Source: Owenia fusiformis (taxonomy: Eukaryota; Annelida; Polychaeta; Sabellida; Oweniidae). Taken from it: 64,000 nucleotides of DNA. The notes below the pieces were generated by a model. The model was not told the DNA's origin, made no database searches, and saw nothing but the letters and a program-made list of their open reading frames with translations. Position 1 is the first letter of the stretch, and each line of letters opens with the position of its first letter. The position numbers and the translations under genes were made by a program. The DNA lies in contig CAIIXF020000002.1 in the NCBI GenBank assembly GCA_903813345.2, forward strand, positions 4,628,001 through 4,692,000, given 5' to 3'. This document shows positions 4,836-64,000 of the stretch, in pieces.

Positions 4836-5668
4836 CACATGTGCTAGGTGAAACAATAAGAGAATTTTAATCTGTCGAGGTTTGTGAGCTTCAGATTGCT
4901 TTCATATGGCCATAATCACGTAAAATGCAACTTTACAAAAACTTTCGTGATTTTCTAAATTGAACGACCTTGACCTTTATTGATGAAGTGAAGAACTACT
5001 TTATTTACAATTTTTAATGATAGCTTTATAAATTACCAATCTATTATACTTTTGTGCTTATATTTCTATTTCAATGTAATTAGTTGAAATTCTTTCAAAA
5101 GATTAGTTTTCGCGAGAGGATTTAACGAAAATTTGAAATGACGTAATGAAGGTACTGGAAGTATTCCGCATAGTGAATTGTCGATAGAATATAGGACGTG
5201 AAATAGATTTTTATTTAGAGTATGGATTGGAATATTTACATAATGAAAAGCAATGGGAATTTTAGATATATATATCATTCATGCAATCAATACAATAAAA
5301 ATGTCTATAATTTTAATTATATTAAAGATTAACGCGGATGGTTATTTGTTTTCGTCGGGTGTTGCAGGTCATGTGTTGAATTTTTGAGAAATCTAAAAAA
5401 TATTTCCATTTATCTCCATTTTCTGCACAAAATCTGAAGGTAAGTGAATCATGATTATATTTACATTGTAGTACAAGTATTTTAGCAACACCAAGCCGCA
5501 TTGTCATCACTAGATGCTCCATGAATTACGTCTAAAATCGATGACAATTTTATTTGAATTTGACTTCGTTTTTTCATGACATGATTTTTGAATTTTCAAT
5601 GATAATTTTTCTGGATCTTTTTTTGAAATTTGGATATTCAGCCTATTGGATAAAGACTGGAAAATGTT
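4836..5668. other. 5' flank of SMIM20
   Basis: About 830 bp between the SMIM20 start and the LINE remnant. The SMIM20 promoter should lie here, reading leftward. I see no TATA box at a convincing distance and no CpG-rich core. Confidence 0.4.
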
Positions 5669-8096: not shown

Positions 8097-8174
8097 CCTT
8101 TGACCTCAATTGTTTTCTGCTACAGTTTGGAACAGAAATAATGACACGTGGATTTGCTGAAGTGAGGATTTCCT

Positions 8175-8602
8175 TATCCTGTTCCCGGACTATGGTCCTG
8201 TACTGAGCCCATACATTTGCCTGTATGATTACAACTTGGGAGAATTATCTACGCCCCTTCCACTTAAGAAACCTACCTCAATGCATTCTAGAACTCAAAA
8301 TGTAACTTCTAATATATTGGAACCGCCGATTGTCTGGGTTAGTTGGCAGAACGAGGTCTTTTTGTTTCTTATGGCTCTTTTGGTCGAAGTTCGATTAAGA
8401 TGGCGGTTATAACGGAATTTCCCGAACTCTTCCGTAATAGCACGAACTTGGTTTTTCGTTACGTCACTTTCGTGTAAAATGGATTTGTTTCCGGTAAGGG
8501 GGAATTTCGAAAATTTAAAAGGGCGTAGATAATTCTCCCAAGTTGTAATCGTACAGGCAAATGTATGGGCTCAGTACAGGACCATAGTCCGGGAACAGGA
8601 TA
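8175..8602. repeat. foldback element with ~86-bp inverted arms
   Basis: 8175-8259 and 8518-8602 are inverted copies of each other with only a few differences; shared words include TGTTCCCGGACTATGGTCCT and TACTGAGCCCATACATTTGC. Outer ends read TATCCTG and CAGGATA, so a TA target duplication is possible. About 260 bp of unrelated sequence lies between the arms. The superfamily is not recognised. Confidence 0.85.
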
Positions 8603-9470
8603 AAGGATTTCCCATGTTAAAAATAAGAGAATTTTCAAGAGGTCATACACATCATTGGATGACAGTATACAAAATGTAAAATATATAGATTTTAAGGGAT
8701 ATGTATTTGGACAATATTTGAGACTATAGGGCTTTCAAAACACCATGGTTTGGATATGGTGATAGAAAATCCACCTGTCATTTATTTTGTTCCAAACTGT
8801 ATATCTGTTCTTCAGATACAATAAATATATATTTAGACCTAGGCTATATGAGTTACAGAAATATTTACTCAAGTTTTGTTTGTGATGTTTTACGAATATT
8901 TTAGAATACAGTCTTCCCTTGCACCTTTGTTTCAGTCTCAAAGGTAGACATGTTAAAACATCAAAGTAATCCATTATCTAAACTTCTTAGGTATTATAAC
9001 ATATGACCATAGATAGTGGGAAGTTTTCGGATATATTCTAGATGTTTATTCCAGGTTCTGTAAGATAAATCAAGGGAAAAATACCTTCTGTCACTTTAGA
9101 CTTGTTCTATTTTTCCGGGATGCAGTTTTACATGTAAAAATTTGATATCATTTGATTCTTGTCAGAACTGCAACTGCAGTTCTCACGAGTCAATTTTTAA
9201 TTGTTTTAAAACATATGGATTTTAGAATTTTTTTGAACAAAAATAACAGAGTTCTGCTTTAACCTTCAATCAGTTTTACTACTCTATACTTATTCCCAGA
9301 TGCAGTTTTACATATAAAAATTTGATATCATTTGATTCTTAAAATAGTCACATAAGTCGAACTGTAACTTTGATTCTCGTGAGTAAATTTTTTTAATGTT
9401 TTAAAACTTCGCTCTGCAATGGTTAGTTTTCACTGCACATGCATACATGCCTTCCTGATTTTGAGGGAGC
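8603..9470. other. gene-free AT-rich stretch
   Basis: No exon recognised. It contains a short direct repeat: ATGCAGTTTTACAT.TAAAAA followed by TTTGATATCATTTGATTCTT occurs at about 9119 and again at about 9299. Confidence 0.5.
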
Positions 9471-9757
9471 AAGGAACAAATCCAAAACGAAAAATTTCGA
9501 ACGGAATGCGTGACATATACGACATTCGCGTGAAAAGTCCGAACGAAATGCGTACATTTTTTTCCCGCATTCGTATTTTTGCTGTGTAGACGATCTTTTT
9601 TAGAAATTTTTCTGCAGAAATATTTTTGCTTGACAATTACCAGGTAAAATGCGTATTTGCGTGACATTTTCTGTCACGCAAAAATAACTGGCGTGACTTC
9701 AAATTCCTCAGCAAATGCGTGACAAATACGCAAATTGCGGGACAGTTGACAGGCCTG
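9471..9757. repeat. dispersed repeat, partial copy of the 61034-61533 element
   Basis: It shares long blocks with 61260-61533, such as TATTTTTGCTTGACAATTAC, GGTAAAATGCGTATTTGCGT and TTGCGGGACAGTTGACAGGC, and ends in the same GACAGGCCTG terminus. The left end seen at 61034 (CAGGGCTGTCAACT) is not present, so this is a truncated copy. Confidence 0.8.
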
Positions 9758-12655
9758 CATTACTGTACTGTTTTAAGAAATGACATAGCTTATTTTTGTG
9801 TCTAGATGCAAAGTGTAAACAAAGAATCAACAAGTAACAAGAGTTCCAAAATAACCTACCACATATAATTTTGAATTAAAACATTTTTTATGAAAAACTG
9901 ATAAGTTTTGCAGTCATAACAAATTACAATCTCCTAATTCCTAATGACAACTATCTTACTATTTTATTAACTTTGATGATTTCCCAGATCTTTAGATCCA
10001 AAATCGTCCATAATCATGTATCATGCCCTTGTACCTTCTAACAAATTATTACGAATTATGAGATTTGTAGAGAATTATAAAGCTGCTTGAAGCTAGTCGT
10101 GATATCCCAGTCTAGTGCTTTAAATTAATTGATTTACTTTGATCATATCATTTGAGCAAAACATGATGGTGACTCGACAAGTAATGGTTGGTTACTACAA
10201 TCTCAAAAGCAGTTAAGCACCTTTATAGGGTAGGTATTACTATACCAAGAAATCATTCATATTTATAGATAATTTTACGGTTCAATGGCCTATCCTTACT
10301 GCTGGTGGCCACTGGCCATCACAGCCCAGGTAATAAATCAATTCAAACCAACAGTGCTGACATTTTCTAAATCAGTCAGCAAGAAAGAAATCTGCTTGAA
10401 TAATTCTAATGTTGGTCAATACTTGGTAGACAATGACTGGAGGAAATTAACATACTATAAAAAAAAGTCATCTTTCTTTCGATTATAAGCTTTGGTTGCC
10501 TCTGTGTGTTCAGAGGTTTAGAGTATAGACCAAGCTATCTTTTAAGGAGCTAAGTGAAATAAATTCGAAATAGTTGTATATTATAAGCAAAAATGTTCAA
10601 TGAGTTTTCGTCCATATGAAATATCTTGATTGGTTTATATTGAATTATAGGTTTAGTCTTAAAAAGAATTACACATGCAGTTTATATACCAACAGATTGG
10701 ATTATTTATAGCAAAACCTCTACAAGAATATTCATAAAAGCTTGATGTATTGAATGAAGTCCACAATCTTTAATTTGAGATATGTATAAAGTAAAGCCTG
10801 CCTTAATGAACACCTCTCTAGTAATCACCTGTTTCTAATGAACACCTCTTCACATTGTATATTTTTCACTGTTAGGAGCTAACATATATTTTACTTTTAA
10901 CTGTAAAATTTGAACTATTACCCCTTCAAGTAGTCAAATATACTAGCCTCTGACCATTCAAACACTTTTCAAACACCAATTTTTTTACAACTTATAATAA
11001 ATATATATGCTGTTTAGTGCAGCATACAGGCTTGGAAGACCACACAGATTAGAGTATGCTTTACATTCGTTTGACTTCGCTTCTCAAAATAGAGCTAAGC
11101 TTTTTCAGTGTCTTTACTTTTTCAGTTTTCAATAAATCTGAGCTATTTAGAGTTTTGTCGTCGAAAAATGGATGACTTTCTATATATGGTAATTTTCTCT
11201 GATGTAATTGCATAATTATCATGCATGCATTTAGCATGTGTTCTTTCTAGCTCGCTGAGTGGTGTAGAAAGGGTCAGTGTGATAAGTTTAAAAGGATTCA
11301 CGACCCGAACTGTAATATACTCTATATTAGGCAGAGAGCAGTTTATAGGGAGACTGCGCACAGGGTAAGATTTGAGTTTATTTTTATGACAGCTCATGTG
11401 TAGTTGACAATCTTGGCAAATTCTCAATGCTTCTCTGGTTTGTATAAATAGGAACTGTGTTAGAAATTGATGATCTATTTTAGCCTAGCCAGTGTCAATA
11501 AACTATACTAACCGCAATTACAGGATCATATCAGCAAATAAGGAAGCGAATTAATCCCCATGGGTAGCGTGATAACTTGCCTGTGGGCTTTAATTAGGAA
11601 ATGATCAGAATAAGGAAGAATTAGAATTAACATGTATCGAGGGACTGACTTATGCATTGTCCCCATGTATTGTCCAGTATGTAGCTAGTCTGTATGCGTT
11701 AATAAGGAAATCGTCAGAATGAGGAAGTATTAGTATATCGAGGAACTGACTTTCAGTATGCAACTCTTAAGCGGGTATTGTCCAGAGTGAATGTCTTCCC
11801 CTGGTCAAAATTATTTTAAAATCATCACCATTTTGAGCATCTTTCAAATTATATAAGCCAAAATTATCAAATTTGAAGCCCCTTGTTGGTATTATGCATG
11901 TTTAATAGAATCCTAATTTCTAGCTCTGATGGGAGGTCATAGCGTATGATATGATGTTATGTGGCTAGCTAACCCTAAGTTATAGTCAATAATCTGAAAA
12001 GTCTTGTTTTAAAAAATCAATGTTCCTTTTTGTCACTGCTATAATACATCGCAATTTAGCATTTTCCTTTTTATCCTGCTGCTACCATTCAATGATTTTA
12101 TCAATAAAGCAAATGTTTACATTACTAAGGTATTTATATCAGTGTTCAATCATTAGAAGATGCATATAGTGAAACCTCTCAATTTGAACACTTTTTCTCA
12201 TCCGAAATTTCGTTATTCTCCCATTTACTCACAAGAAACCTTGAAATGTGAACACCTGCTAATCTGAACACTTTCAGCTGGTCCTAATGGTGTTTGGATT
12301 AGACATGTTTTAATTGACTGTAGTTTTAAATTTACATAAATGTTGATTGTGGTACTGTAGTTTACAATTAAGCACTTTATGAGTAGGTGGTTTAACCATT
12401 TGTTATAAGCTGTTCATTATTGATTCTTGTTATGATTCTTGTTTATAATATCAGGTTGTTTTTGATCATATCACACTTACTTTTTGCAAAGTGTGAAATT
12501 AAATTTTAAATGACGTAACATAAAAAGGTATATTAAATCACTTTCCAAGGAACAAGAATAGCTTGTCAAAGAAAGTCAAAATTTTGATTACTGAATATGC
12601 ATTTCAAAAGTCCGTTCTCCTGATGGTCTAAAGTACTCCTGTTGAAATCCAGCCC
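9758..12655. other. gene-free stretch with degenerate MITE pieces
   Basis: No coding exon recognised. Pogo-like MITE fragments (GTAAAGCCTG..., GAACACCTC words) lie at about 10791-10860 and 12172-12335. The remaining sequence is AT-rich and apparently unique. Confidence 0.45.
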
Positions 12656-47100: not shown

Positions 47101-50100
47101 GAATGTGCTTTGAGACATGTTCGATTTTCTAAAAAGAAAAGCTGATTGCTCCAGGGACTTTAAAGATACTGAATTTGGATGACCAAAATGAACTGAAACC
47201 AATGGATAGCATGAGATTTTTCAATGGAGAAATAACATGGGGAACACTTATCTTAAAGCAATTAAGTTATTCTTTCAGGAACTATTTGATACATCAAAAT
47301 AAAGAATAGTAATGCATTAAACATTGTAAAAAATGATTGCATTTTTGGTGAAAATGGGGTCAACATCTTTGAAAAAGTGTGTTGATGGGTTGATTACTAG
47401 TTAAATATCTCCGAGTTTGTTTGACTTTATTATTACTGTAAATAGTTTTCTTTGAGATAATGAATTGATCTAAAAGATAAACCTGTCTTCATTGTCAAAA
47501 AATAGTCATAATCCACGATATAACCTTCTGAAATTGTTTGCGATAACCTACGTGCTCCTTGTCATAACTTTAAAATATTATTATTAACCATCCATCAAGT
47601 TCCTGTACAATTTCAACCAAACTGTTCAATACATTTGAAGTTATGACCAAAAAATTGACCAAAAACCTTTCGAGTTATGACCAAATATGGAAAATTGATC
47701 AAATGCATTTAGAGTTATGATCAAATATGGAAAACTGACCAAATACATTTATAGAAATGACCAAATATGGTAAACTGACCATCAGCTGCTAGCATGACTG
47801 TTGTTTTCTCATTGAGATGCTTCACATCTGAGGTACTCCAGGAAAACTTTGATGAATCTGGAAGTTAAAAGTGAGATGATTCAACAAAAATGCAATGTTG
47901 TTGTGATAATGGAAGTTTGTAACTTTTGACTGAGTCAATGCAATATGAAGTTTTAATGACATTTAGGCAACATTGTTTTTGTAAAAAAGATAAGGAGGAT
48001 TAACGGTAAACTCAGATATTCTTAAATAACTAACCATGTCCAATAAAATAAAACATATGCATGTCAAGATAAAAATGTATGTATACTGTATATGTATCAA
48101 CTTGATGGAATCCCAGTTTGTAGTTTGAAGGATATGAGATAGAAAATGTTAAACTTTAATGCAATAAATGTAGCCTTATGCACACCTTGAAGGAGGTTAC
48201 CTTTGCTCCAGTCTAACTCCCGTATTGCAACTCCACTCTCCTGACCCATTTCATTGACTTTGTTCAACTCTACATTATGTTCACATGTTGTCAGTACATT
48301 CTCACCAATATCTGTAATGACAGTAACAACATGTCTACAATAAAATAATCTGGGAAAATCTTGGAATCTCAGAAAATCTCATGAAATATACTTGTTCATG
48401 AACTCATTTTTTATACTAATTAATCGTTAAAAAATTGTAAATATGAAATAAGCAAACATTAAACAATCAACATGAGGAAGTTAACCATGTGGTATTAATC
48501 AATAATTTTTGTAAATATTTAACCAAGAACATGGGTTGAGGAAGGACAACATAACATTTTCAAATAAAAATAGCTTGTTTGGATATGATAACAATGCCAA
48601 CAATAAAATGATATTCATTATATAATGAGCTATTTATAGTTGTATTTTACATATTTTGCAAAATATACTATTTTCAGGCAAGATTGCTGAATTAAATTGT
48701 TCATTTTAACATACTTATATTTAAAAAATTCTTGACTTCATTTATCATTTTATTGCAAGGATGACCTCTCAAATAAAACAAGACACATTTGTGAACTATA
48801 TGCATATATCAATATATCATATTCAATATACGCAATGCAGCCCATTATCTAATAATAATTATCATCCCAATCCTAAATTGGCCAACTACCATGCCAAAAA
48901 ACAAACAGTTTGAGATTTTCTTGCAAAAGAATTTTCCTTGAAAAGAATCAATGGAACAATTACCTTGAAGGACATTAACAAGACATTACATACAAGATTC
49001 CAGAAAGGAAGATAAAATAAAAAAAAATAACTAACTTAAAATCAAGTTTCTGATTTTTCATCACTGAAGACTTCAAAAAGCATTGGAATCAATCCATGAA
49101 AATGTTTGGCTGAAAATGTGTGAACAACATGTAAAAAGTACATTTTCACAAATATCTGTAATAATAGTAAAAACATCTCTGCAATAATAGTAATAAAATG
49201 TCTGCAATGATAGTATAACATGTGTTTATAATGTACAATATTAGTACCAACAAAACTACTGTACTTTAAGACCAATTATGGGGAGCCATCTATACATGAA
49301 ATATGGAGATATTTACATTACATTACTCTATTCTTATCAATCCTTCGCAAATTGTGACACTTACACATTCATTTTATTTTGTCTTCCAAATTCATGTTGT
49401 ATATCTATTTCATTAGTTTCTCATTTATTTTTATCAAAAGATTTTTATGATTCAATTTTAAGGCTATGTAAATGTCAAGATAGCCTAATTAGTTTAGTTT
49501 ATTGTTATTATAATGTACATTAATTAAAGTAGCAAAACCACACATTTGTGAGGGATGAAACAAATTCAAGTCACGTGATTTATTTTTTACGTGATCTTTA
49601 TTTTTTATCACAATTCAAAATTCGACAAGTAGACAAATCACGTAGATTCGTAAACAATGGCAACAGGGTGAGACAAAAAATTTTGCATGATAATGCATGA
49701 TAATAAAGATCACCTAAATCTAATTGAATCTTGCATACTCATTACGGCGCCAAACTGGATGCAAACAGCCCCTACTCATATTAAGACATTGTTGAAAGAG
49801 GGACTGTCGCCTAGATTTCTCCCCCAGCCAGTCAGTGATGTCCCATTATAATATCTTACATATGGGTATAGTATTGCCAATGTATTGAGAAAATCAGCAG
49901 AACAAACAATTGTCAGAATTGAACACAATTGAGTTTGATCGCAGTAATCAAGGGAAAACCCTGACAAGTGACATGTGCACATGGGTGTAGGAAAACTGGG
50001 CATGTGCCTTTTAGCCAGGCAGCCAATCAGATTCACAGTCTACTTTCAATATATGAAACAAGGCATCAACATGCAAAATGTCACCACCTGCCATTTATTA

Positions 50101-53100
50101 CAGATGCCAACTGCCAATTGTCAAACACCATCCAGAAAAAAGTTGGAGACTATAACAATATGTCACCATTGCTGGTAGTGACATAATAATCAACAGAATA
50201 ACCATATGTCACTGCAAGGTTTTGAACCCACAATCTCAGTAACCTTATGCTTTTCCGATTGCATCACCCAGCTCTGCAAGAATTTACAAAAAAAGTACAT
50301 ATAAATAATTTCAGGAAAAAAGCATACAAGTACACTTCTATTATTTGAAAATGATCATTTATACTACCAATAATATTAAAATGCATGTCTGAGAAAGTAT
50401 CTTCATCTAAATTTTCAAATTTCCTGTTTCTTGGCACAAGTGTTGATAAGTAACCCAAACCCAGACAGGCAATCAGATTCAAAGCAGTTATTTAAATTTC
50501 ATTTTGAATTTCTTACTGTTCAGTAAATATTTCATTTCTGGGAACAATGAAATTGATACAATAAATGTTGGAGTTGGGATCTAATAGTTGGTAAGTAGAG
50601 TGATGAAACTGTTTTACATCTCCTAATGCAAAAATATCAAGGGGGAGGTACTCTAATTGTGTTCCTACAAGACAGCCCCTTTTGAAGTTATGGTGACTTA
50701 TCAGAATGATGTGCTGACTCTCCTAAAAACTTCATGATTGCAGAAATTTTATACTGATGCACTTTTAACAGGACACCCTGTATGTTTTAAGGGTGATTAT
50801 AAATCAATTGGAACCAAACATAATATTACAATCATCTTAAAAAATAAATATGGCAACACCTGTGGGTAAGTTTATCTTCTTTTTAATTGTAATTTTAAAA
50901 TTATTATATTTTTAAAATCATTTTTCATTATGACACCAAATAATAATTATTTTATTTACTTTTACATTTTATTATCATCATGCTTTATATACTGCATGCT
51001 TACATACAATAAAATGAAATGCATACAAAATATAGAAAAAATTACATTTACTAAGGAATCATTTTGAGACAAATAGCATAATGTTAAATTGTTTATGTCA
51101 GTATGTAGTGCAAGCCCCTCAGATGGGGTTGGTTACGTAAATTATTTTTTGTTTCAAACTTATCAAAATTGCCCAGATATCAGCTATTATTATCATCTAA
51201 AATGATAAAAAAAAATTGAGAAGGAGGAGAAACTCTCTACCACGTCTCTTGCACAACATCCTCTGCCACCCACCCCCCCCCCATCTAGAAAGAGGAGAAA
51301 TGTTAAAATGATAAAAACATAATTCCAGGTGTGCAACATGAAGCCCTTTGTGAGTTTAAAAAAAGATATCTCTGCAAGAAATGCAAGCTTCAGCCGGAGA
51401 AGTTTGTCCTTGATGCTGATGATGTCTTATTTTGGTACCAACTTATATATAATCCACAAGATCAAGGACCGACACACTGTTTCCTGTGCAACAAACCAAC
51501 ACACAAGTGATTACGCCAAGTACTCTTACAATATGTGCTCAGACTGCCCACGCATCCCATTGGATATCAAAACTTTCTCAGACTGATTACAAATTATCCT
51601 GAATGCTGCTGTAATTAGCAATAGATTGGATGAACAAAAATTCAAGCGCCCTTCAATCGAAAACAACTGTTTTCAAATACTGACACTTCAAATGACATGG
51701 ACATAAGACAGTCCTAAATCGGGACATTAATTCATATAAACACTTTTTCCAAGCATGTTGGTCCCCCATGACATACCATTTCAATAATGTACATTTGCAG
51801 TCAGATTCAGTATGATATTATATATTGGACAGAAATTCTTGAAACATGGAATAGACTTTCTGAATCTAGATGGACTTGATTGCACTGTTTACGCTTGGAT
51901 CAACAACATTACATATTGATGTTTAAAAATTCATGCAAGGACATTTCAAACATGCGTATATCTTATATATACAGCGCTTGCATTAGGTTAGAAAATTTGT
52001 GAGTCCCAAGGACGCAATTTTTTTTAAAAAGTGTGTCCTTTGAAAAAAAAAGTGTGTCCCCTATTTCTAGCCTGTTTTGAGGTATAACTTTATTTTAAAA
52101 GCATTTTTTACCAAAACACCTTTCAGTTTTTGATTTCTTGCCGCGAATTTAAAACGGAAGTAAACGTTAAGTATGGACTGAATAAATGCATGTTCTTTCA
52201 TTCGACAATGAATACATTTTATTTCATGAATAACCTAATATTTGTTTCTGAATAGGAAAAACTGTGGCATGTCATGGTTTCAAATTTAGAAATAAACAAA
52301 GTCGAAAAAATTCGAGAGAATCATGATTATTTGTAAATATTCAACATGTTGAGCCTTATTTACAATTCAAATAAAGGTGAGAGATCATAATTATTTGTTT
52401 TTGTTAGGTTTCGTTGTAAACACATTGTAGTATTGAGCTAAAAAAAAATTGTGTCTAAAAAACACAAATATTTTCAAATTTTGCGTCCTCCAAATTAATT
52501 TTGAGTCCTTAACATGTATGGGACGCCGTTAATGCAAGCCCTGATATACTGTATATATATATATGGAAAAATAAAAACATTCTTTTTCATGGACTCATTT
52601 AATATGAAAAGGACTGTTTCAAAATGTGATTTAAAGTAATGTCATGATTACATCTTCATCTACAATCTGCAAAAGGCTGATAAGCCCATTTAAAGCATTA
52701 GTAATCTGTTACCAACAGCACATGGTTATAAACCTTTTTGAAATAAATCATTAATTTTTGTAAATATTTAACAGAAAATGCAAGGCAAGTCAACAAAACA
52801 TTTTCAATTCAGGTTATCTAATAAAAATGATAACAATGACATTCAAATGAAATGGGAGCTATGATATAGATGGCAGTTCACTAAATCTTTAGTGGATTGT
52901 GCTTTATACCTGTTCCATTGGTTTATGTGTAAATACTGCTGTCTTAAATCTTTAGTGGGTTGTGCTTTATACTTGTCCCATTGGTTTATGTGTAAATACT
53001 GCTGTCTTAAATCTTTAGTGGGTTGTGCTTTATACCTGTCCCATTGGTTTATGTGTAAATACTGCTGTCTTAAATCTTTAGTGGGTTGTGCTTTATACCT

Positions 53101-56100
53101 GTCCCATTGGTTTATGTGTAAATACTGCTGTCTTAAATCTTTAGTGGGTTGTGCTTTATACTTGTCCCATTGGTTTATGTGTAAATACTGCTGTCTTAAA
53201 TCTTTAGTGGGTTGTGCTTTATACCTGTCCCATTGGTTTATGTGTAAATACTGCTGTCTTAAATCTTTAGTGGGTTGTGCTTTATACCTGTCCCATTGGT
53301 TTATGTGTAAATACTGCTGTCTTAAATCTTTAGTGGGTTGTGCTTTATACCCGCCCCATTGGTTTATGTGTAAATACTGCTGTCTTAAATCTTTAGTGGG
53401 TTGTGCTTTATACTTGTCCCATTGGTTTATGTGTAAATACTGCTGTCTTAAATCTTTAGTGGGTTGTGCTTTATACCTGTCCCATTGGTTTATGTGTAAA
53501 TACTGCTGTCTTAAATCTTTAGTGGGTTGTGCTTTATACCTGTCCCATTGGTTTATGTGTAAATACTGCTGTCTTAAATCTTTAGTGGGTTGTGCTTTAT
53601 ACCTGTCCCATTGGTTTATGTGTAAATACTGCTGTCTTAAATCTTTAGTGGGTTGTGCTTTATACTTGTCCCATTGGTTTATGTGTAAATACTGCTGTCT
53701 TAAATCTTTAGTGGGTTGTGCTTTATACCTGTCCCATTGGTTTATGTGTAAATACTGCTGTCTTAAATCTTTAGTGGGTTGTGCTTTATACCTGTCCCAT
53801 TGGTTTATGTGTAAATACTGCTGTCTTAAATCTTTAGTGGGTTGTGCTTTATACCTGTCCCATTGGTTTATGTGTAAATACTGCTGTCTTAAATCTTTAG
53901 TGGGTTGTGCTTTATACTTGTCCCATTGGTTTATGTGTAAATACTGCTGTCTTAAATCTTTAGTGGGTTGTGCTTTATACCTGTCCCATTGGTTTATGTG
54001 TAAATACTGCTGTCTTAAATCTTTAGTGGGTTGTGCTTTATACCTGTCCCATTGGTTTATGTGTAAATACTGCTGTCTTAAATCTTTAGTGGGTTGTGCT
54101 TTATACCTGTCCCATTGGTTTATGTGTAAATACTGCTGTCTTAAATCTTTAGTGGGTTGTGCTTTATACCTGTCCCATTGGTTTATGTGTAAATACTGCT
54201 GTCTTAAAACGTCAAATACTAAATAAATCCAATAAATATCTAATTTTCTCATCATAATTATTTACTAACATGTTTTGTGTTTCAATATCATGAAGTTTTG
54301 GATATTTTCTTTGAAATTAAGTTTATGAGATTTTGAAGCAAGTTTTACATATTAAAGTATGTAATTAAACCCACTGAATCCTTCATATTATGTATGTTAA
54401 GATGATTTTTTTTATATTTTTTAAATACTCCAAAATATACTAGTTACTATTCTTTTAGATTTTAATAAATGCTTAATGGTGACCTTTAATATTATTTTCA
54501 TATTTGCAAAGGTAACCTCATCGCCATTGTAAAGACTGAATTCAGCAACTTACTTCAATGTCTTAAAGGGTGACGCATGTCGTTTAGCAAATCGAACGCT
54601 CGTTTCTGGTGTTGCTCACCATTTAGTATAAAAGGCTCGATCCCGGAATAATACTCAAGGGTTCAAAGGCTCGAGGTCGTTGTGTCAACATCTCTAACTT
54701 TTATATAACATTTGTACAGTATAGATCGTCACACATTTATAAAAGGGAGATTTTCATTTTATACGGGAAGCTTATCGGAACCCTTTAAAAGAATCAAGAC
54801 ACATTTGTGAACAATATGCATCATTGATTCAAATATGAATATATTCAGCCCATTATTTAAATACTATCCTCAGATCCTTATCCCAAATCGCCAACTTTTT
54901 TATCAAACACTACATACCTTATGAAACATCTCAAGTAGACTTGAGGTTTTATTATGTCCATAAGATATCAGGACAAAAAATTTGGACCAACTCTGGGTTT
55001 AAATTTGAGTTTTCAAAAATTATACTTTATTCCCTTTTATTCCCATAAAATATAAGGCTATAAATATGAGCTTCATGATAACTTTACAGAAGATTTTCTT
55101 TTCAACATTATTTCAACTGATCTGCAAAAATGATGTCCTCTAGTTATACAATATTATTTTCAGCTTAAGATTTACCTCTTCAATTTAGATTTACCTCACC
55201 TATTTAGGTTTACTTCACCAATCTAAATTTACCTCATCTATTTAAATTTACCTCACCTATTTAGATTTACCTCACCCATTTAAATTTACCTCACCTATTT
55301 AGATTTACCTCACCAATCTAAATTTACCTCAATTATTTAAATTTACCTCACCTATTTAGATTTACCTCATCTATTTAAACTTACCTCACCTATTTAGATT
55401 TACCTCACCTATTTAAATTTACCCCATCTAGATTTACCCCAACCATTTAAATTTACCTCACCTATTTAGATTTACCTCACCTATTTAGATTTACCTCACC
55501 TATTTAGATTTACCTCATCTATTCAAATTTACCCCACCTATCTAAATTTACCTCATCTATTTAGATTTACCTCACCTATCTAAATTTACCTCACTTAAAC
55601 TTTACCTCACTTATTTAAATTTAAGTCACCTATTTTTTGATCCTGACTATGCCCATGTTATGAGTCAAACAACTCATGTGCAAAATTAGTAGCTCAGTAT
55701 ATTGATAAATGATGCAAAATTATGTCAATTTAGATTTTGCACTGTCTAAAGTGTTTGTTGCTTCGTCATGAAAGAGTTGAAAGGCAAGCTATATAGATAA
55801 GAACAACAAATTTGTCATTAGTTTACTATACCTGTGCAGAAGATGTGTTGTGCTACCTTGGCCATTACAATGCTCACAAGGCCAACACCTCCACCCAGCT
55901 CCAGAGCACAACAGTCAGAGAACGCCTGTCTGTGGTGCAGTATGTAATCACACAGTAACAGTGCACCTGACCATACTTGTAGTCCAACATCTCGGAGTCT
56001 TGTTGCCATGGCATGCTCTGAAGATGAACAACAAAAGAGTTAAAATCAGGGCCTGTGATGGCTGTGATATAATAGTACAATGCTCAATGCTTCAAATGCT

Positions 56101-57706
56101 AAAAGGGGAGTAAATTCACTAAAAACAATTGTTATTAAAAGTGGATGAGGTTATACCCCTATGTTACCCCTATGCATGTTCCTGTTCAAGTGAGGTAATA
56201 AATCAACGATTATGTGGTCTTCTGAACTATTGGTTCGCAAAAATATACATTTTCTTAGACATATAATGACACATGTTTGTAATAAATATATCATGGGAAT
56301 TTTGCCTATAACACATGGAATAAGGAAAAACTAAAAATCGCACATTCGAGGTTCCGACATTTTCGGTAACCAGCGTAATCGAGCAGATCACCAGTGTGAC
56401 TACAGTATCTAGCTATATGGTGCTAAATAACAATGTTCTACAAATAATATAGCATATACCTATAACAATAGAATATTCTGTCTTTGTGTCTTTCCTAGAG
56501 AGAATCAGATCACCATCTTCATCAGTTTCTATCTGTTCATCAGTGTTTTCCTCTTCCTCATTATGTTCAGTACAGTGGGTAATTGCTTTAGGATCATCAT
56601 ACACAAAAATTGTTCTGGTTACTGAAAGTAAACAAATGTATAATTGCTATAGAATGTAACAATATACGTGATGACTTTTGACAGGGGGAGTTTTCCGATA
56701 TGGAAGTTTTTTAACAGTTTTGGTAACTGAAAGAAAACAAATGTAATAACAGAGTACATGACCTGCCCATAGCCAGCTTTTGCCAGGGAAGGGGGGGGGG
56801 GGCTTTTTGCCAAGGGGGGAACTTTTTGACAGTTTTGGCTAAAAAATCATATGAAAAGTGCTCACAATGGTGAAAAACTGCATGATTTGATTTTGAAAGA
56901 ATTTTTGGCTGGGGGTGCTTCATGATGACTGTAGTAGTATTTGTTTTGTTTTGGAAACTACAAATTTTACAGTCAACTTCTTGGGAGTAGGCAGGCATGA
57001 AGCAGGTGAGGCAAATGCCTCGCCAAAATTGTACAGAAAAATATATCTTCAGATGTTTTTCAACTCAAGCTTTAGAAACATGGTCCAAATGCACAGATGC
57101 CAGCCAGATCGAGTTTATAGTAGTAGGTTAGGCTCAGAATTCTCAATAAATAATCAAGGTTTTATCCTTGAGGTGCTTATACTACTACACAAATGCCCCT
57201 TGGGGTGTCTTCCACTATTGTGATTGTACTTGTATTATTTGGAATTTAGGAAATAAATAAAACAAACAAACATAGTCGTGCCGGCATCTGTGCCTAAATG
57301 TACCTCCTTTACTCTGAATTTGCCTCACCTACAGATCTTTGCCTCATCTAATTTTAGACCCTGGTATGGCCTTGATCTTTACAAGTAAATGGGAAAAAAC
57401 ATTCTTGCTTTTTAAGAATGGGTTATACCAGAGGCTTTCAATAGACTCTTGAAAGCACATGGTTATACATGCACTAAGGGAATCATACTGCATAAAGCAG
57501 AATTATTTAAGAAACAACTTAAAATACATGTGCTGTATATGGTACTACTAATAAAATTTCAAAGTCCATTGATTAATTCATTAATTAAATGCCCCGAACC
57601 AAATGCCCATATTTTTACCTTTGTATTCATTGTCAGATTGTGGGATGTCTACATTTATATCAGCATACACATGGACATCAGAAAGGCAAACTTCATCCGG
57701 CTCCAT
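44155..57706 (-). CDS. METTL22: METTL22, SAM-dependent protein lysine methyltransferase
   Basis: Eight coding exons on the minus strand: 57619-57706, 56460-56621, 55832-56017, 48201-48311, 47780-47857, 46508-46607, 44960-45125 and 44155-44190. All introns are GT...AG and every phase matches, giving 308 residues (human 404). The start MEPDEVCLSDVHVY matches the LSDVHLY block of the human N-terminus. Residues 31-83 are acidic with the conserved DEDGDL. The class I methyltransferase core has the seven-beta-strand family signature VWSGALLLCDYIL (98-110), motif I ELGGGVG (123-129), acidic D146, ELDW (177-180), AADVIYDNSLTDA (from 206) and VEKR (239-242). The last exon encodes ELWKIQAEFVS, matching human ELWKIIAEPVT. 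Human METTL22 methylates the DNA/RNA-binding protein KIN17. The N-terminal acidic linker is shorter than in human. The largest intron spans 48312-55831. Confidence 0.95.
44191..44959 (-). other. METTL22 intron 7
   Basis: Minus-strand GT...AG intron, phase 0, with donor GTAAGT at 44959. If it were not spliced, the reading frame would continue ten codons to a TGA at 44936-44934. The 36-nt last exon beyond it restores the conserved C-terminus, so splicing is preferred. Confidence 0.85.
45992..46413 (-). mobile_element. tRNA-derived SINE with a tripled 98-bp body segment
   Basis: The head (about 46413 down to 46345) has a pol III A box GTGGTGTAAAGGTTAGCA and a B box GGGTTCAATCCC, similar to a tRNA-Gln type gene, but its stems do not pair well enough for a working tRNA. 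Downstream on the same strand the body is repeated three times at 98-bp spacing (GAAACAGCTCCCCGTATTAA at 45992, 46090 and 46188), each unit about 96% alike. It lies in METTL22 intron 6. Confidence 0.75.
48320..48930. repeat. intronic segmental duplication, copy 1
   Basis: Blocks of this stretch recur, diverged, around the 63-bp array: TTCATG.ACTCATTT (48400 and 52587), ATTTTTGTAAATATTTAAC (48507 and 52754), AAATGATATTCATT-like words before GAGCTAT, and AAGACACATTTGTGAAC (48779 and 54796). The shared order indicates one ancestral duplication inside METTL22 intron 3. Confidence 0.6.
49145..49215. repeat. diverged copy of the METTL22 exon 4 acceptor region
   Basis: CACAAATATCTGTAATAATAGTAA.AACATCTCTGCAATAATAG resembles the exon 4 acceptor and following intron at 48303-48345 (CACCAATATCTGTAATGACAGTAACAACATGTCTACAAT), and then repeats internally. 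The coding part is not preserved. Confidence 0.5.
50075..50285 (-). mobile_element. tRNA-derived SINE, head and body
   Basis: Head on the minus strand, 50283 to 50215: A-box-like GCTGGGTGATGCAATCGG and B-box-like TGGGTTCAAAACC. The body follows with TGTCACTACCAGCAATGGTGACATATTG, TGGCAGTTGGCATCTGTAAT and GGCAGGTGGTGACATTTTGC. Body-only relatives are at 16683, 18174 and 40429. Confidence 0.75.
50850..51510 (+). CDS. candidate small gene: 65-aa CxxC...CxxC protein
   Basis: Two exons, 50850-50865 and 51329-51510, joined by a GTAAGT...TTCCAG intron in phase 1. The product starts MATPVGVQHEALCEFKKRYL and carries C21-x2-C24 and C56-x2-C59 with 31 residues between, the layout of a zinc ribbon, and an FWYQLIYNP core. 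The ATG has A at -3 and G at +4, and TATAAA lies about 50 bases upstream (50798-50803). It sits inside METTL22 intron 3 on the opposite strand. I do not recognise the family. Composition is balanced and unlike the surrounding AT-rich DNA, which supports coding. Exon 2 may instead be the last exon of a longer gene or a transposon-derived domain. A competing frame through exon 2 (51329-51586) looks less protein-like. Confidence 0.5.
51972..52543. mobile_element. hAT-like non-autonomous element in METTL22 intron 3
   Basis: Ends CAGCGCTTGCATTA and TTAATGCAAGCCCTG (one mismatch). The interior includes a pair of inverted blocks (GTGAGTCCCAAGGACGCAA and TTGCGTCCTCC...GAGTCC). Flanks are AT-dinucleotide runs, so a target duplication cannot be read with certainty. 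Confidence 0.75.
52883..54205. repeat. 63-bp minisatellite, 21 copies, open on both strands
   Basis: Exactly 21 head-to-tail 63-bp units (AAATCTTTAGTGGGTTGTGC-TTTATACCTGTCCCATTGGT-TTATGTGTAAATACTGCTGT-CTT). Most units are identical; variants are C/T at TACYTGTCC and one CCCGCCCC unit. As 63 equals 21 codons, both strands are open: minus 52843-54255 and plus 52892-54226. It lies in METTL22 intron 3, within copy 2 of the intronic duplication. Confidence 0.97.
54206..55167. other. METTL22 intron 3, between two arrays
   Basis: AT-rich. Contains the rest of intronic duplication copy 2 (to about 54900) and a GTATAAAAGGCTCGATCCCG word at 54629 in a GC-richer patch (54560-54700). No exon recognised. 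Confidence 0.45.
55168..55633. repeat. degenerate ~19-bp array, about 24 copies
   Basis: Variants of CACCTATTTAGATTTACCT repeated with many substitutions and length changes, ending about 200 bp before METTL22 exon 3 (55832-56017). It is much older-looking than the 63-bp array. Confidence 0.9.
56760..56925. mobile_element. CAGGCCCATAGCC-type MITE fragment in METTL22 flank/intron
   Basis: CCTGCCCATAGCCAGCTTTTGCCAGGG with long G runs, then TTTGGCTAAAAAATCA and GTGAAAAACTGCATGATT, matching 28848-29053 and 43823-43985. It sits in METTL22 intron 1. The right terminus is missing. Confidence 0.6.
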
Positions 57707-59173
57707 TCCCTTGAAATGTAAAGTACAGGGTGGTACAAACATGCAAATGGACATCAGAAAGGCAGACTTCATCCGGCTCCATTCCCTTTAAATGTAAAGT
57801 TAGTACAGGGTGGTACAAACATGCAAATGGACATCAGAAAGGCAGACTTCATCTGGCTCCATTCCCCTTAAATGTAAAGTACAGGGTGGTACAAACATGC
57901 AAATGGACATCAGAAAGGCAGACTTCATCTGGCTCCATTCCCTTTAAATGTAAAGTACAGGGTGGTACAAACATGCAAATGGACATCAGAAAGGCAGACT
58001 TCATCTGGCTCCATTCCCTTTAAATGTAAAGTACAGGGTGGTACAAACATGCAAATGGACATCAGAAAAGCAGACTTCATCTGGCTCCATTCCCTTTAAA
58101 TGTAAAGTACAGGGTGGTACAAACATGCAAATGGACATCAGAAAGGCAGACTTCATCTGGCTCCATTCCCTTTAAATGTAAAGTACAGGGTGGTACAAAC
58201 AAGCAAATGGACATCAGAAAGGCAGACTTCATCTGGCTCCATTCCCTTTAAATGTAAAGTACAGGGTGGTACAAACATGCAAATGGACATCAGAAAGGCA
58301 GACTTCATCTGGCTCCATTCCCTTTAAATGTAAAGTACAGGGTGGTACAAACAAGCAAATGGACATCAGAAAGGCAGACTTCATCCAGCTCCATTCTCTT
58401 TAAATGTAAAGTACAGGGTGATACAAACATGCAAATGGACATCAGAAAGGCAGACTTCATCTGGCTCCATTCCCTTTAAATGTAAAGTACAGGGTGGTAC
58501 AAACATGCAAATGGACATCAGAAAGGCAGACTTCATCTGGCTCCATTTCTCTTTAAAAGTAAAGTACAGGGTGGTACAAACATACACATGGACATCAGAA
58601 AGGCAGACTTCATCTGGCTCCATTCCCTTTAAATGTAAAGTACAGGGTGGTACAAACATGCAAATGGACATCAGAAAGGCAGACTTCATCCAGCTCCATT
58701 CCCTTTAAATGTAAAGTACAGGGTGGTACAAACAAGCAACTGGACATCAGAAAAGCAGACTTCATCTGGCTCCATTCCCTTTAAATGTAAAGTACAGGGT
58801 GGTACAAACATGCAAATGGACATCAGAAAGGCAGACTTCATCCAGCTCCATTCCCTTTAAATGTAAAGTACAGGGTGGTACAAACAAGCAACTGGACATC
58901 AGAAAGTCAGACTTCATCTGGTTCCATTCCCTTTAAATGTAAAGTACAGGGTGATACACACATGCAAATGGACGTCAGAAAGGCAGACTTCATCTGGCTC
59001 CATTCCCTTTAAATGTAAAGTACAGGGTGGTACAAACATGCAAATGGACATCAGAAAGCCAGACTTCATCCAGCTCCATTCCTTTTAAAAGAAAAGTACA
59101 GGGTGGTACAAACATCCAAATGGACATCAGAAAGGCAGACTTCATCTGGCTCCATTCTCTTTAAATGTAAAGT
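57707..59173 (-). repeat. 76-bp array carrying the METTL22 start exon, 19 units
   Basis: Directly 5' of METTL22's first coding exon are 19 units of 76 bp (one unit is 80 bp). Read on the minus strand, each unit contains TTTAAAGGGAATGGAGCCAG and continues like the first 12 codons of METTL22 (MEPDEVCLSDVH), then GTTTGTACCACCCTGTACTT. One unit (around 58570) keeps the exon-like CATGTGTATG. With the genuine exon there are 20 ATG-bearing copies. On the plus strand each unit starts TACAGGGTGGTACAAAC, which at the far edge (59173) continues as TACAGGGTGGTTCAAAAATG, a mariner-like terminus. Confidence 0.95.
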
Positions 59174-59289
59174 ACAGGGTGGTTCAAAAATGATACTCTA
59201 ATTTTGGAATAACTTTCTCAATTATGGTGGAATCTTCATGAATTGTACAACCAGGTATTGTTTTATGGAAATATTCTTTCCTATTTTAT

Positions 59290-59513
59290 AGCTAAAAGTA
59301 TGTGCTCAGGAAAGGTCAATGAACAGAATCTTTTGATTTTTTCAGAAAATGTTTCTAATATATTGCTCTAAATGATACAAACGAAATTTTAAAAAATCGT
59401 CTGAAACAATAATGGCTGTAGTTAAAAGGAAAATAGATAGACTTTAAATTCATTTTCTGAAAAAGTCAAAAGATTCTGTTCAGTGACCTTTCCTGAGCGC
59501 ATACTTTTAGCTA
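59290..59513. repeat. inverted repeat with ~62-bp arms
   Basis: 59290-59351 pairs with 59451-59513; shared words are AGCTAAAAGTATG.GCTCAGG and AAAGGTCA.TGAACAGAATC. The loop is about 100 bp. Confidence 0.8.
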
Positions 59514-59722
59514 TTTTTCAGTCACATTTTCAGGGGGCTGAAAAGGTTATCTTATCATGTTTATGGTCATTCCGACCATTTCACCTGTGTTCCCAGTCAT
59601 GTAAATGATATGTGGAACTAGTTAAACTGACTGGAGGTCCAACAAGAACTCTGTTATCTTGGTTCAAAAAAATTTCAAAATCCAGCATGGTTTTGACATT
59701 TTTTGTTTTGTCATAATTTCCT

Positions 59723-60145
59723 GTTAAGGTCAGGGTGCATGATGGGAAATTTTCTGCATTCCTCAATTGAGTCACATGTTATTTTTCAAACAAGAATAAC
59801 TCCTTCCCCACATTGTCTATGTCTTCCAGTTTTGCACAAAGAGTGCACTTATGTGCCTAGAAAAGACTTGTGAGAAGAATGTTTTGATAAAGTGTATAAA
59901 AAACAAGAAAATTCAGTGAAAAAAATCAGAAAATTTTCAGAATTTTTTTTCACTGAAATTTCTCATTTTTTTTACTTTTTACAAAACAAACCTTCTCACA
60001 AGGCTTTTCTAGGCACATAAGTGCACTCTTTGTGCAAACTTGGAAGATGTAGACAATGTGGGGAAGGAGTTATTCTTGTTTGAAAAATAACATGTGACTC
60101 AATTGAGGATTGCAGAAAATTTCCCAACATGCACCCTGTCCTTAA
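59723..60145. repeat. foldback element with ~150-bp arms
   Basis: Ends GTTAAGGTCAGGGTGCATG and CATGCACCCTGTCCTTAAC. Arms 59723-59880 and 59993-60145 are closely matched (GACAATGTGGGGAAGGAGTT, GGCACATAAGTGCACTCTTT). The centre is a smaller AT-rich palindromic region. A diverged single arm is at 31561-31725. Confidence 0.88.
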
Positions 60146-60305
60146 CTTCCATAGCACCTTAATTACAAAAGGCCACAGCTTTGCTGCACATTATACATTA
60201 CTATATGAAATATACAAAAGTTAGGATAAATATAAATGTTTCTATTTTTACATAAACTGTTTCAATTTGGTCATTTGATTCAACAATGATTGCTTCTCGT
60301 AAAGG

Positions 60306-60425
60306 CTAGAGTACCGACAATTGTCGGTACTCTAGACTCTGATGTGGTGGCACGCTAGAGGACCGACAAATAAATTGTCGGTACGGGAGATATGCTGTGT
60401 TTAAACGCTAGAGGACCGACAAATA
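60306..60425. repeat. cluster of ACCGACAATTGTCGGT palindromes, left group
   Basis: 60306-60335 is a perfect 30-bp palindrome (CTAGAGTACCGACAA and its complement). A variant (ACCGACAAATAAATTGTCGGT) is at 60362-60382, and a half-site (CTAGAGGACCGACAAAT) follows at about 60408. A right-hand group lies at 62605-62726. Confidence 0.92.
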
Positions 60426-61033
60426 TTGATTTTCGAATTTTCTGGCGCATGCGCAATGCGCGGGGGGATATTTCAGATATCATACGGATATTTTGGGAAC
60501 AAGTGCAAAACCCTGGGAGGGCATTAGCCCCGGTTACCCGGGGATTACCAAACCCAGTCAAAAAATAGTAGCCCGGGAACAGGGTGGGTAGTAAACGTTG
60601 AAAACCCAATAAAAAAACATGAACAAGTAAGACGTTAGAGAGCTATTAATGCAGAGTAAACGGCTATATATATTCTAAACAGATATTTAGAGCTTATCGT
60701 ATGGTATGAGGTTCCATATCCATCCGCCAAATGGTATATAGTCCATTTAAAAACCTGTGGTATCGTTCTAAATAACCCATAGTTGGCTTCTAGGGTACCT
60801 AGTATGCCACTATTTGGTATCGAAATAAAGAGGAGTTCAACTTTCATTTGAATTACGAAAATAGCGATGTAGGTCAAAATAGTTCCGAACGTGAGCATGT
60901 TTACTACGCGTTTGCCCGTCATATCAGAATTGAGGAAGTGGTAGCAAACGCGAGTTACAATAAACGGACGCTGATATCTCAAAAAGTAACCTGACTCCCT
61001 ATAATTTGATGTAGGTCAATCGAACCCCTATAT

Positions 61034-61533
61034 CAGGGCTGTCAACTTGGACCACCTAATATGAGTGACTTCAAAATGTTGGACACCTAAGTCCAAATCT
61101 GAACACTTTTGTCCAAATTTTGAACACCTTTGGCCAACTTTTAAACACCTTTGGTCAAAGTTTGAGCACCTTTGCCAAAGTTTGAGCACCTCTAATTTTT
61201 CGCGCTCGCTACGCTCGCGATATCGTCAACGGGGGGGGGGGGGGGGGGGGGGGGGGTAGGTACGAAAATTTCCAATGAACATGCGTGACATATATGGGAT
61301 TCGCGTGACAAATCCAAACAAATTGCGTTCGGTATTTTTCCGACGTTCGTATTTTTACCGTATCGTAAACATATTTCTAAAAAGCTTTTACAGAAATATT
61401 TTTGCTTGACAATTACCAGGTAAAATGCGTATTTGCGTGACATTTTCTGTCACGCAAAAAAAACTGGCGTGACTTCAAATTCTTCAGCAAATGAGTGACA
61501 AATACGCAAATTGCGGGACAGTTGACAGGCCTG
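61034..61533. mobile_element. hAT-like element with CAGGGCTGTCAACT terminus
   Basis: Left CAGGGCTGTCAACT; right AGTTGACAGGCCTG. CTATAT lies just outside both ends, a partial target duplication. The interior has repeated TTTGAACACCTTTGG..AA words, a run of 26 G (61231-61256), and the block shared with 9471-9757. Confidence 0.75.
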
Positions 61534-61977
61534 CTATATGGACAGGTGCATTTTGATATATAACACTATGGGGGATAAGCGTTTCATAGTTGGTCACGAA
61601 CGCCATATGTGCAAAGTATTGTTATGAATTTTCGAATTTGGTGTTGGATTACGGTACTCATACCTTATAGCACAATTTTTCATTGAAGTTGCATTTGGCT
61701 CCCTTAGTTAATGGCCACGATTCCATCTCGCATGAGAGAGCTACCAAACGCAAAGTAAACAGTGATATATTCCAAATGAGATATTTCTCCTGTGCCATGG
61801 CGTAGTAGGGGTAGAGGTCGACGGGGGCGAAAGCATCCCCTCCCCTAATTGTATATATCGACCCATTAGATAGAACAAGAAAAGAGCTTTAAAATGTTTT
61901 TTAATTGAAGCTTGTAGGACAATTTTGATGGAAGTTGAATCAATTTTTGTCGAAATAAATTATGGCTCACTACAAGT

Positions 61978-62388
61978 TAAGGCACAGCTGGAAAGTAACA
62001 TTTTGGTAAAAAATTGCTATACCTGCACATGTTATTTTCTGGTACAAAATAAAGTATGAAGGCATGTATCAATTTCCTTGCTTTTTTCAGGAAAGTATCA
62101 TTACATTGTCTTCTTTTAGAATATCTGGTAGGCGTTCAAAGGGTACTCCAGGGAATTCTGATATTTCACACTTCCTGTTTTTCCAAATTTTCTTTCAAAG
62201 TTTCCAGACAACACAGGAGCTACCATTGACCTGTTTCCAGGTTTACTAAAAGTAGACAGTGTAATGATACTTTCCTGAAAAAAGCAATGAAATACACACA
62301 TGCCTTCATACTTAATTATGTACCAGAAAATAACATGTGCAGGTATAGCAATTTTTTACCAAAATGTTACTTTCCAGCTGAACCTTAA
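61978..62388. repeat. foldback element with ~140-200-bp arms
   Basis: Left arm from TTAAGG..CAGCTGGAAAGTAAC; right arm ending in its complement. Long shared blocks include TTGCTATACCTGCACATGTT and TTTTTTCAGGAAAGTATCAT. The open frames on both strands (62064-62249 and 62116-62301) mirror each other because of this symmetry and are not genes. Confidence 0.9.
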
Positions 62389-62448
62389 TGCCTGTACGAT
62401 TCCATACTGCAAAAGAAGTAATATGCCCCCCCCCCCTCAAAAGAAAAA

Positions 62449-62521
62449 GTAGGTCTTGCCGGGATTCGAACTCGGGACCGAGCGTGTTTGAGTCGTGCTC
62501 GCTAACCACTAGACTACCAGT
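62449..62521 (-). repeat. tRNA-like SINE head
   Basis: Minus strand: A box TAGTCTAGTGGTTAGCGAG and B box GAGTTCGAATCCCGG. The T stem pairs 4 of 5, but acceptor and anticodon stems do not pair, so a functional tRNA is unlikely. It sits just outside the right arm of the foldback element at 61978-62388. Confidence 0.6.
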
Positions 62522-62604
62522 GATGAGGTTATATTCGAATTTCACAGTAGTGGATTTATTTATGAAATTGTCGGCTCTCTAGCAAAAACACGTAGCAGCC
62601 ACTT

Positions 62605-62726
62605 GCGTACCGACAATTGTCGGTTCTCTATCTGACACTACTAGGTGACGATAGAGTGCCGACAATTGTCGGTACCCCAGCAAATACCCCTGGACAGTCT
62701 CCAGTACCGACAATTGTCGGTCCTGG
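62605..62726. repeat. cluster of ACCGACAATTGTCGGT palindromes, right group
   Basis: Three copies: 62609-62624, 62659-62674 and 62704-62721. The last extends to CCAGTACCGACAATTGTCGG-TCCTGG (62701-62726), palindromic except one pair. Between them are further short hairpins (CTCTATC...GATAGAG; CCCCAG...CTGG). Confidence 0.92.
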
Positions 62727-63926
62727 AGCCACTCCGTATTTTAAAATTCAAAGTAGGAGTAAACGTCGTAGCATTGGTCAGCAATCAGTTGTTTCCACCT
62801 TATTTGTAGCTGTACTTACTTTGTACCTTCTAGTTGCATAAAATGTTCTTTTCCTCCACGCTTTTCCTCAGAGTGTGATTCTGTTGAGGGAAATAAGTTA
62901 AACTTTAAAAATTCTTTAAAATCGCCGCCATATTGATCAGCTGGATTACGCTACACTAAAGAGGAGGAAATATCCCAGAGTTCATAGTTGAACCTGTAGC
63001 ATATCTATCAAAGCAAAGAAGAACCGTCTTGCTAGTGGATCATATATGGATTATACTGTTCACGTGGACCATTGATCTCGATACTGAAGTACTTCCCAAG
63101 AAAGCATTTATTGCAAATGGTTGTGCTGATCACAATTAGTTGTGCTAGAGGGCCACTAAACTAAATGCGATGAGAAGACAACATCCATAAATGATTGTGT
63201 TAGGATAATAATTGATGCTGATTGTTCAAGAAGAACGATAACGCCAGTGGTTGTGCTTACCATACAACATCGTCTGTCATTGATTGTGCTACTGAAGATT
63301 GACAATAGCCTAATTGTGCCATAACATTTTTCTTCATAACGTGATCATCCGATATTGTTTTTTTTGTGGGGTGGAGCTCATGTACGTGTCTCAAAATCGA
63401 ACGCGGGTTTCACGGTTAGCTGTGCCACAGTGTGTAGTAGCCTAGTGTGTGTGAAGACCGAGCGTGCGAAGGTGGTATTTTGTTCAAATCACCCGGGCGC
63501 CGGCCAATGAATCGGAGCAAAGGTGACCCAGGCATTAATGACGCGTTCGTTCATTCAAAGGGCACATATATACGGAACTACACCCCACAAAAAAAACTAT
63601 GGAAATTAATCATTTATTCTAAATTCGTAAACTCAAACGGATATATAAGACTTAAAGGAATATTCCTTGCTAGACCCTTTCTCTCTTAATATGGTAGCTA
63701 TAATCATATACATAGTTTCCATATTTAGCAAAACATGGGAAAATATTTTAATATGGTCAATATTGATCATTTAAAAAGCTAGTGCTTATTTCCAGTGAGC
63801 TGCTATCTTTTAAGATTTCTTGCAGGAAGTGATGTCATCAACTCTCAACTTCTATAACCTTGCACATAACAGTATAGGAAAGTAGCACAAAAAAATGCCA
63901 AACTTTGTGACAAAGAATTTCATCCT
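62727..63926. other. gene-free stretch
   Basis: No exon recognised. ATTGTGCT words recur loosely between 63110 and 63330. The frame at 63447-63689 shows no family motif. Confidence 0.4.
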
Positions 63927-64000
63927 GCTTGCAGCGAGAAGACGGACCGGTTCGAGGCAATCTGCTTGCAGCGAGAAGACGGACCGGTTCGGGGCAATAG
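63927..64000. repeat. 37-bp tandem repeat, cut by the window end
   Basis: CTGCTTGCAGCGAGAAGACG-GACCGGTTCGAGGCAAT occurs twice (second copy with one change) and reaches the window edge, so the array may continue. It is GC-richer than its surroundings. Confidence 0.85.

Follow-up and report, generated by a model that had tools for sequence, protein, structure and literature searches.

How is a gene translated when its own start codon stands in 20 copies at its 5' side? The question is raised by a METTL22-like gene of the annelid Owenia fusiformis, carried on the minus strand of a 64,000-nucleotide stretch of contig CAIIXF020000002.1 (assembly GCA_903813345.2, positions 4,628,001 to 4,692,000). 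This stretch is called the window below, and all positions refer to it. The start of the first coding exon is multiplied there in a tandem array; this observation is confirmed. The array is most probably, at about 60%, a minisatellite that grew from the start of the coding exon, with METTL22 made from the terminal exon unit. The anatomy of the array, its locus specificity in one genome search and the lack of detectable coding constraint on the copies are direct observations. Use of the terminal unit is the conjectural part of the explanation.

Array of start-exon copies and the METTL22-like gene

The tandem array lies on the minus strand. Tandem Repeats Finder calls it at 57664-59192, with a 76-bp unit, 20.1 copies, 94% matches and a score of 2719. 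A fixed-anchor cut yields 20 head-to-tail units over 57664-59188, 18 of them 76 bp long, one 80 bp and one 77 bp (58504-58580). Each unit consists of a 33-nt leader (37 nt in the 80-bp and 34 nt in the 77-bp unit) and of 43 nt opened by ATGGAG or ATGGAA. Unit 1 (57664-57739) is the real exon unit according to the unit cut, the alignment and the gene model, comprising the 33-nt leader and, of METTL22-like coding exon 1, the opening 43 nt (the ATG is at 57706 and the donor follows 57619); the decoys are therefore 19. The array extends into exon 1, and only the leader of unit 1 separates its copies from the gene. The ATG is present in all 20 aligned units. Units hold 3-5 ATGs each, 77 in the whole array, 72 of which are upstream of the true start.

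Identity between decoys is 94.8% on average (lowest pair 85.5%), and between decoys and the exon unit 85.5-96.1%. Unit 2 (57740-57819, 80 bp) has a 4-nt insertion and retains the CCGG and codon 3 of the exon; unit 13 (58581-58656) retains the exon-type codons 13-14 (GTG TAT). In a search of the 498,259,871-bp assembly (525 contigs), all ten matches fell inside the array; the search scores the best candidates, so that a weak copy could escape it. Head-to-tail units within about 10-100 bp, high similarity and restriction to one locus, unlike a dispersed element, characterize the array as a minisatellite.

The METTL22-like gene begins with coding exon 1 (57619-57706; 29 codons and 1 nt; donor GTAAAA) and continues on the minus strand with exons 2-7 at 56621-56460, 56017-55832, 48311-48201, 47857-47780, 46607-46508 and 45125-44960. 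The seven modelled exons, with the last exon of the gene outside the model, join in phase across GT-AG borders without meeting a stop. Methyltransf_16 was recognized as a domain of the predicted product with E 3.2e-21, and all seven genome matches of the model fall inside the window. The eight PDB rows are METTL21C, EEF2KMT, METTL21A, METTL21B and others, with METTL22 among none of them. The gene may be METTL22, a name taken from the likeness of SDVHLY and DEDGDL to the human METTL22 N-terminus. Judged from its reading frame and borders, it looks intact over the seven exons modelled.

Other repeats occur within the gene. A 40-bp repeat of 3.3 copies (47651-47781) starts at the exon 5 donor and repeats donor-like GGTCAGTTT, which makes it the gene's second array on the edge of an exon. 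In the intron upstream of exon 4, a 51-bp stretch (49137-49187) copies the start of exon 4 and its acceptor region at 86% identity. The intron between exons 3 and 4 holds a 63-bp array of 21 copies with 98% matches (52882-54208), whose unit length, a multiple of three, leaves long frames of 472 and 453 codons open on the two strands, and a 19-bp array of 25 copies (55168-55635).

Growth and drift of the copies

The exon and the decoy consensus differ at five sites. One lies in the leader; the differences in codons 3 and 6 are synonymous, and those in codons 13 and 14 replace the amino acid. A preliminary description of this DNA had reported a start exon multiplied about 20 times upstream of METTL22 and growing by local duplication. 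The multiplication is borne out by the 20 units, and local growth is supported too. The same description gave about 12 exon codons per unit and a consensus departing from the exon past codon 12. The homology to the exon is correct, its measured length being 14 codons and 1 nt; the departure applies to codons 13 and 14, and also affects the leader site and codons 3 and 6.

Coding constraint on the decoys was not detected in variable columns, change types, stop codons or ATG columns. Of the 43 columns in the coding half, 10 vary, and of the other 33 columns, 9 (permutation P 0.44 for equal or stronger conservation of the coding half). Among the distinct decoy changes, 3 are synonymous and 9 nonsynonymous, possible changes being 24:102. 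Unit 17 contains a stop codon. The three invariant ATG columns have a chance of 0.42. Nothing in these tests shows that the copies are kept as protein code or that their ATGs are being lost. Selection retaining the decoy ATGs was considered and rejected: ATG is kept in 20/20 units, yet that chance is considerable. From these patterns, the decoys are best read as behaving like drifting non-coding minisatellite DNA.

The one CpG of the exon (CCGG) is kept in units 1 and 2 and is CCAG or CTGG in the other 18; these would be the two products expected when a methylated CpG decays. Units 1, 2, 3 and 13 show all four pairings of CCGG/CCAG with GTGTAT/TTGCAT. These pairings indicate that sequence has passed from unit to unit, perhaps also to or from the exon, or else that identical mutations occurred more than once.

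The proposed course begins with a tandem duplication of a 76-bp segment that took in the 33-nt leader and the opening 43 nt of coding sequence in METTL22 exon 1. Slippage and unequal exchange would have expanded it to 20 units, as elsewhere in this minisatellite-rich genome. Ancestral upstream DNA would have been pushed about 1.45 kb away, and the units would have become promoter-proximal DNA. The 19 upstream copies would be unused as coding sequence, METTL22 would be made from the terminal exon unit, and transcripts would most likely start no more than about 75 nt from the true ATG, within unit 1 or in the 3' portion of unit 2.

Leader length and the start of transcription

Leaders shorter than 36 nt contain no upstream ATG and are the only ones without any. 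Leaders of 36-75 nt contain only the in-frame ATGs 57742, 57754 and 57772, adding 12, 16 and 22 residues, respectively. Leaders of at least 76 nt include the out-of-frame decoy ATG 57782 of unit 2, whose frame overlaps the true start. A transcript starting at 59188 carries the full 72 upstream ATGs, 68 of them opening closed upstream reading frames. The 19 decoy frames opening with ATGGA end upstream of the true ATG in 18 cases; the last one overlaps it out of frame. The rotation of decoy starts through the frames, expected in the preliminary description, agrees with this arithmetic. The gap proposed there for a transcription start, between the array and 57706, amounts to 33 nt. A working METTL22 mRNA is predicted to have a leader shorter than 76 nt.

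Several observations weigh against a start so close to the true ATG. Leaders below 76 nt are shorter than usual in animals. A TATAWA box is present in 0/20 units; the initiator-like and TTTAAA matches in the units are short. CpG is depleted from the gene through the array, unlike in an unmethylated promoter: observed/expected is 0.30 over the gene (1-kb bins 0.03-0.61) and 0.02-0.19 in the 1-kb bins of 57001-60000. A CpG-poor array would look the same, however, if the repeat was born from one CpG-poor unit. In a calibration on Rab start exons, upstream CpG values were 0.28-1.02 vs 0.03 for METTL22, a comparison confounded by the origin of the array from a single CpG-poor unit. For this calibration 20 of 31 matches were fetched and 14 of the 20 loci used; an in-frame ATG was missing at L022, L029, L032 and L034, and at L036 and L037 the motif was absent from its expected position.

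The alternative that survives best, although rather unlikely, places the promoter at or past 59189. The leader would then retain the array, and 19 well-placed decoys, with all 72 upstream ATGs, would throttle METTL22 translation according to copy number. The start context AAGGGAATGG of the real ATG is identical in 14/19 decoys, and the frame opened by the last decoy (57782) runs across the true start to a stop at 57693. Only 33 nt of leader were included in the duplicated unit; had the ancestral leader been longer, the ancestral promoter would now lie beyond 59188. An array-bearing leader, however, should nearly abolish the expression of an intact single-copy gene, and the decoy ATGs give no indication of being selected in either direction. 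The DNA past the array also counts against this alternative: about 99 bp apparently non-repeated, then dispersed repeats, about 150 bp, and another young element.

These parts are as follows. Positions 59189-59287 (99 bp) look non-repeated and would be the closest remnant of the ancestral 5' flank; among the best 40 of 1690 candidates scored, every listed match except the self match starts at query base 100 or later. A dispersed high-copy repeat with inverted arms occupies 59288-59714. A dispersed high-copy inverted-repeat element, similar to miniature inverted-repeat transposable elements, occupies 59723-60146, most listed copies being 96-99% identical. The following approximately 150 bp have almost no genome match. 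A high-copy dispersed, CpG-rich element extends from 60298 at least to 61033; its searches gave more than 1000 rough candidates each, the best 40 being scored, and it bears the palindromes ACCGACAATTGTCGGT. CpG observed/expected is 0.92, 0.97, 0.69 and 0.89 in the four bins of 60001-64000, and an exact NRF1-type palindrome lies at 60445-60454 (NRF1, ETS and YY1 consensus strings were used). A promoter at about 60.4 kb was suggested by the CpG boundary and the NRF1 site, because upstream promoters of Owenia are reported to be hypomethylated, with NRF among the motifs of the unmethylated ones (PMC11292947). It was rejected, the stretch from 60298 being a dispersed element. The CpGs of this element reflect youth and not a promoter, because the listed copies of the element are 96-100% identical.

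The next alternative is improbable. It assumes a non-coding exon beyond the array, the array being removed as an intron of the 5' untranslated region (UTR) that ends just before the ATG. All donor and acceptor scores used here come from generic splice matrices. An AAG acceptor-like site at 57709 scores 2.76, below all six known acceptors (3.04-5.58). The same place is acceptor-like (at least 2.65) in 16/19 decoys, and unit 19 has a better site, 5.49; splicing would therefore not single out exon 1. A moderate donor, CAGGTGAAA at 59585, scores 3.39, inside the range of the seven own donors of the gene (0.96-6.35), but sits in a dispersed repeat.

It is quite improbable that the array acts as a promoter or enhancer through the tandem octamer ATTTGCAT and initiator-like motifs. 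The octamer is present in 13/19 decoys and absent from the exon unit, and an initiator-like match occurs in 19/20 units; however, these motifs were picked after viewing the sequence, and a repeat automatically multiplies one chance motif.

The units as alternative first exons, also put forward in the preliminary description, are highly improbable and not supported: every unit has a start codon, in 14/19 decoys in the context of the real ATG, and unit 18 has a donor-like site (2.05) within the own-donor range, but the best GT of the other 18 decoys scores at most -1.24 vs 0.96 for the weakest own donor, leaving these 18/19 without a usable splice donor by the generic matrix, 18/19 ATGGA frames stop before the true ATG while the last is out of frame with it, and no conserved coding sequence per copy was found (P 0.44; stop in unit 17). 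A test for GTRAG donors (0/20 units) is weak and was replaced by these scores, because only 2/7 own donors fit GTRAG. The gene, the array, the rotating frames and the local growth described earlier are retained.

Comparable repeats and biological meaning

Arrays with units of at least 25 bp and at least five copies number seven in 12 sampled 10-kb pieces (6/12 pieces hold one) and six in the window, the METTL22 array included. By extrapolation, the genome total would be tens of thousands, so that a few landing on start exons are expected; more start-exon minisatellites in this genome are likely. One sampled piece (L006) contains at 5083-10000 a 96-bp array of 51 copies, which continues past the end of the piece. 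Elsewhere in the assembly, 74 histone matches gather in two large clusters on C8 and C11 and a smaller one on C10, with single matches scattered around; with the contigs numbered 1, 10, 11, 12, 2, 3 and onward, these would be chromosomes 5, 8 and 7, in agreement with PMC12153100 on Owenia fusiformis. Mitochondrial COX1 has no match in the assembly.

Three known arrangements are close to the present one. The TYMS repeat has two or three short copies, which are transcribed and are not known to contain start codons. In UGT1, GCNT2 and the protocadherins, each variable first exon is complete and has a promoter and donor of its own. The Owenia array, in contrast to TYMS, has 19 copies carrying start codons. 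Its copies, unlike those first exons, are 76-bp fragments, 18/19 without a usable donor. The human TYMS 5' UTR variable number tandem repeat (VNTR; PMC3320636) resembles the array in being repeated in tandem at the 5' end of a gene, near the start codon. Resemblance to tandem variable first exons (PMC1885805) consists in a first-exon stretch copied upstream of shared exons. Gene-associated minisatellites, such as human VNTRs (PMC8096271), are similar in the unit of tens of bp, the about 20 near-identical copies, the locus specificity and the position beside a gene. The Owenia unit differs from them in straddling the border of leader and coding sequence in a first exon, by which a start codon is multiplied. 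A narrow literature search, covering top-ranked papers only, found no comparable start-codon minisatellite.

It is doubtful that METTL22 transcripts start in or beyond the array and that the number and frame of the self-copied starts set the amount of the enzyme and its N-terminus. If so, out-of-frame decoys would repress, while the ATGs at 57772, 57754 and 57742 would add 22, 16 and 12 residues, and the first codons of the gene would form a length-variable translational dial.

The minisatellite grown from the coding exon, with METTL22 probably made from the terminal unit, would be a clean natural case of a gene remaining open although a repeat has taken in its start codon. For METTL22 to be expressed in Owenia, the leader must be very short, the array must be spliced around, or many decoy starts must be tolerated.

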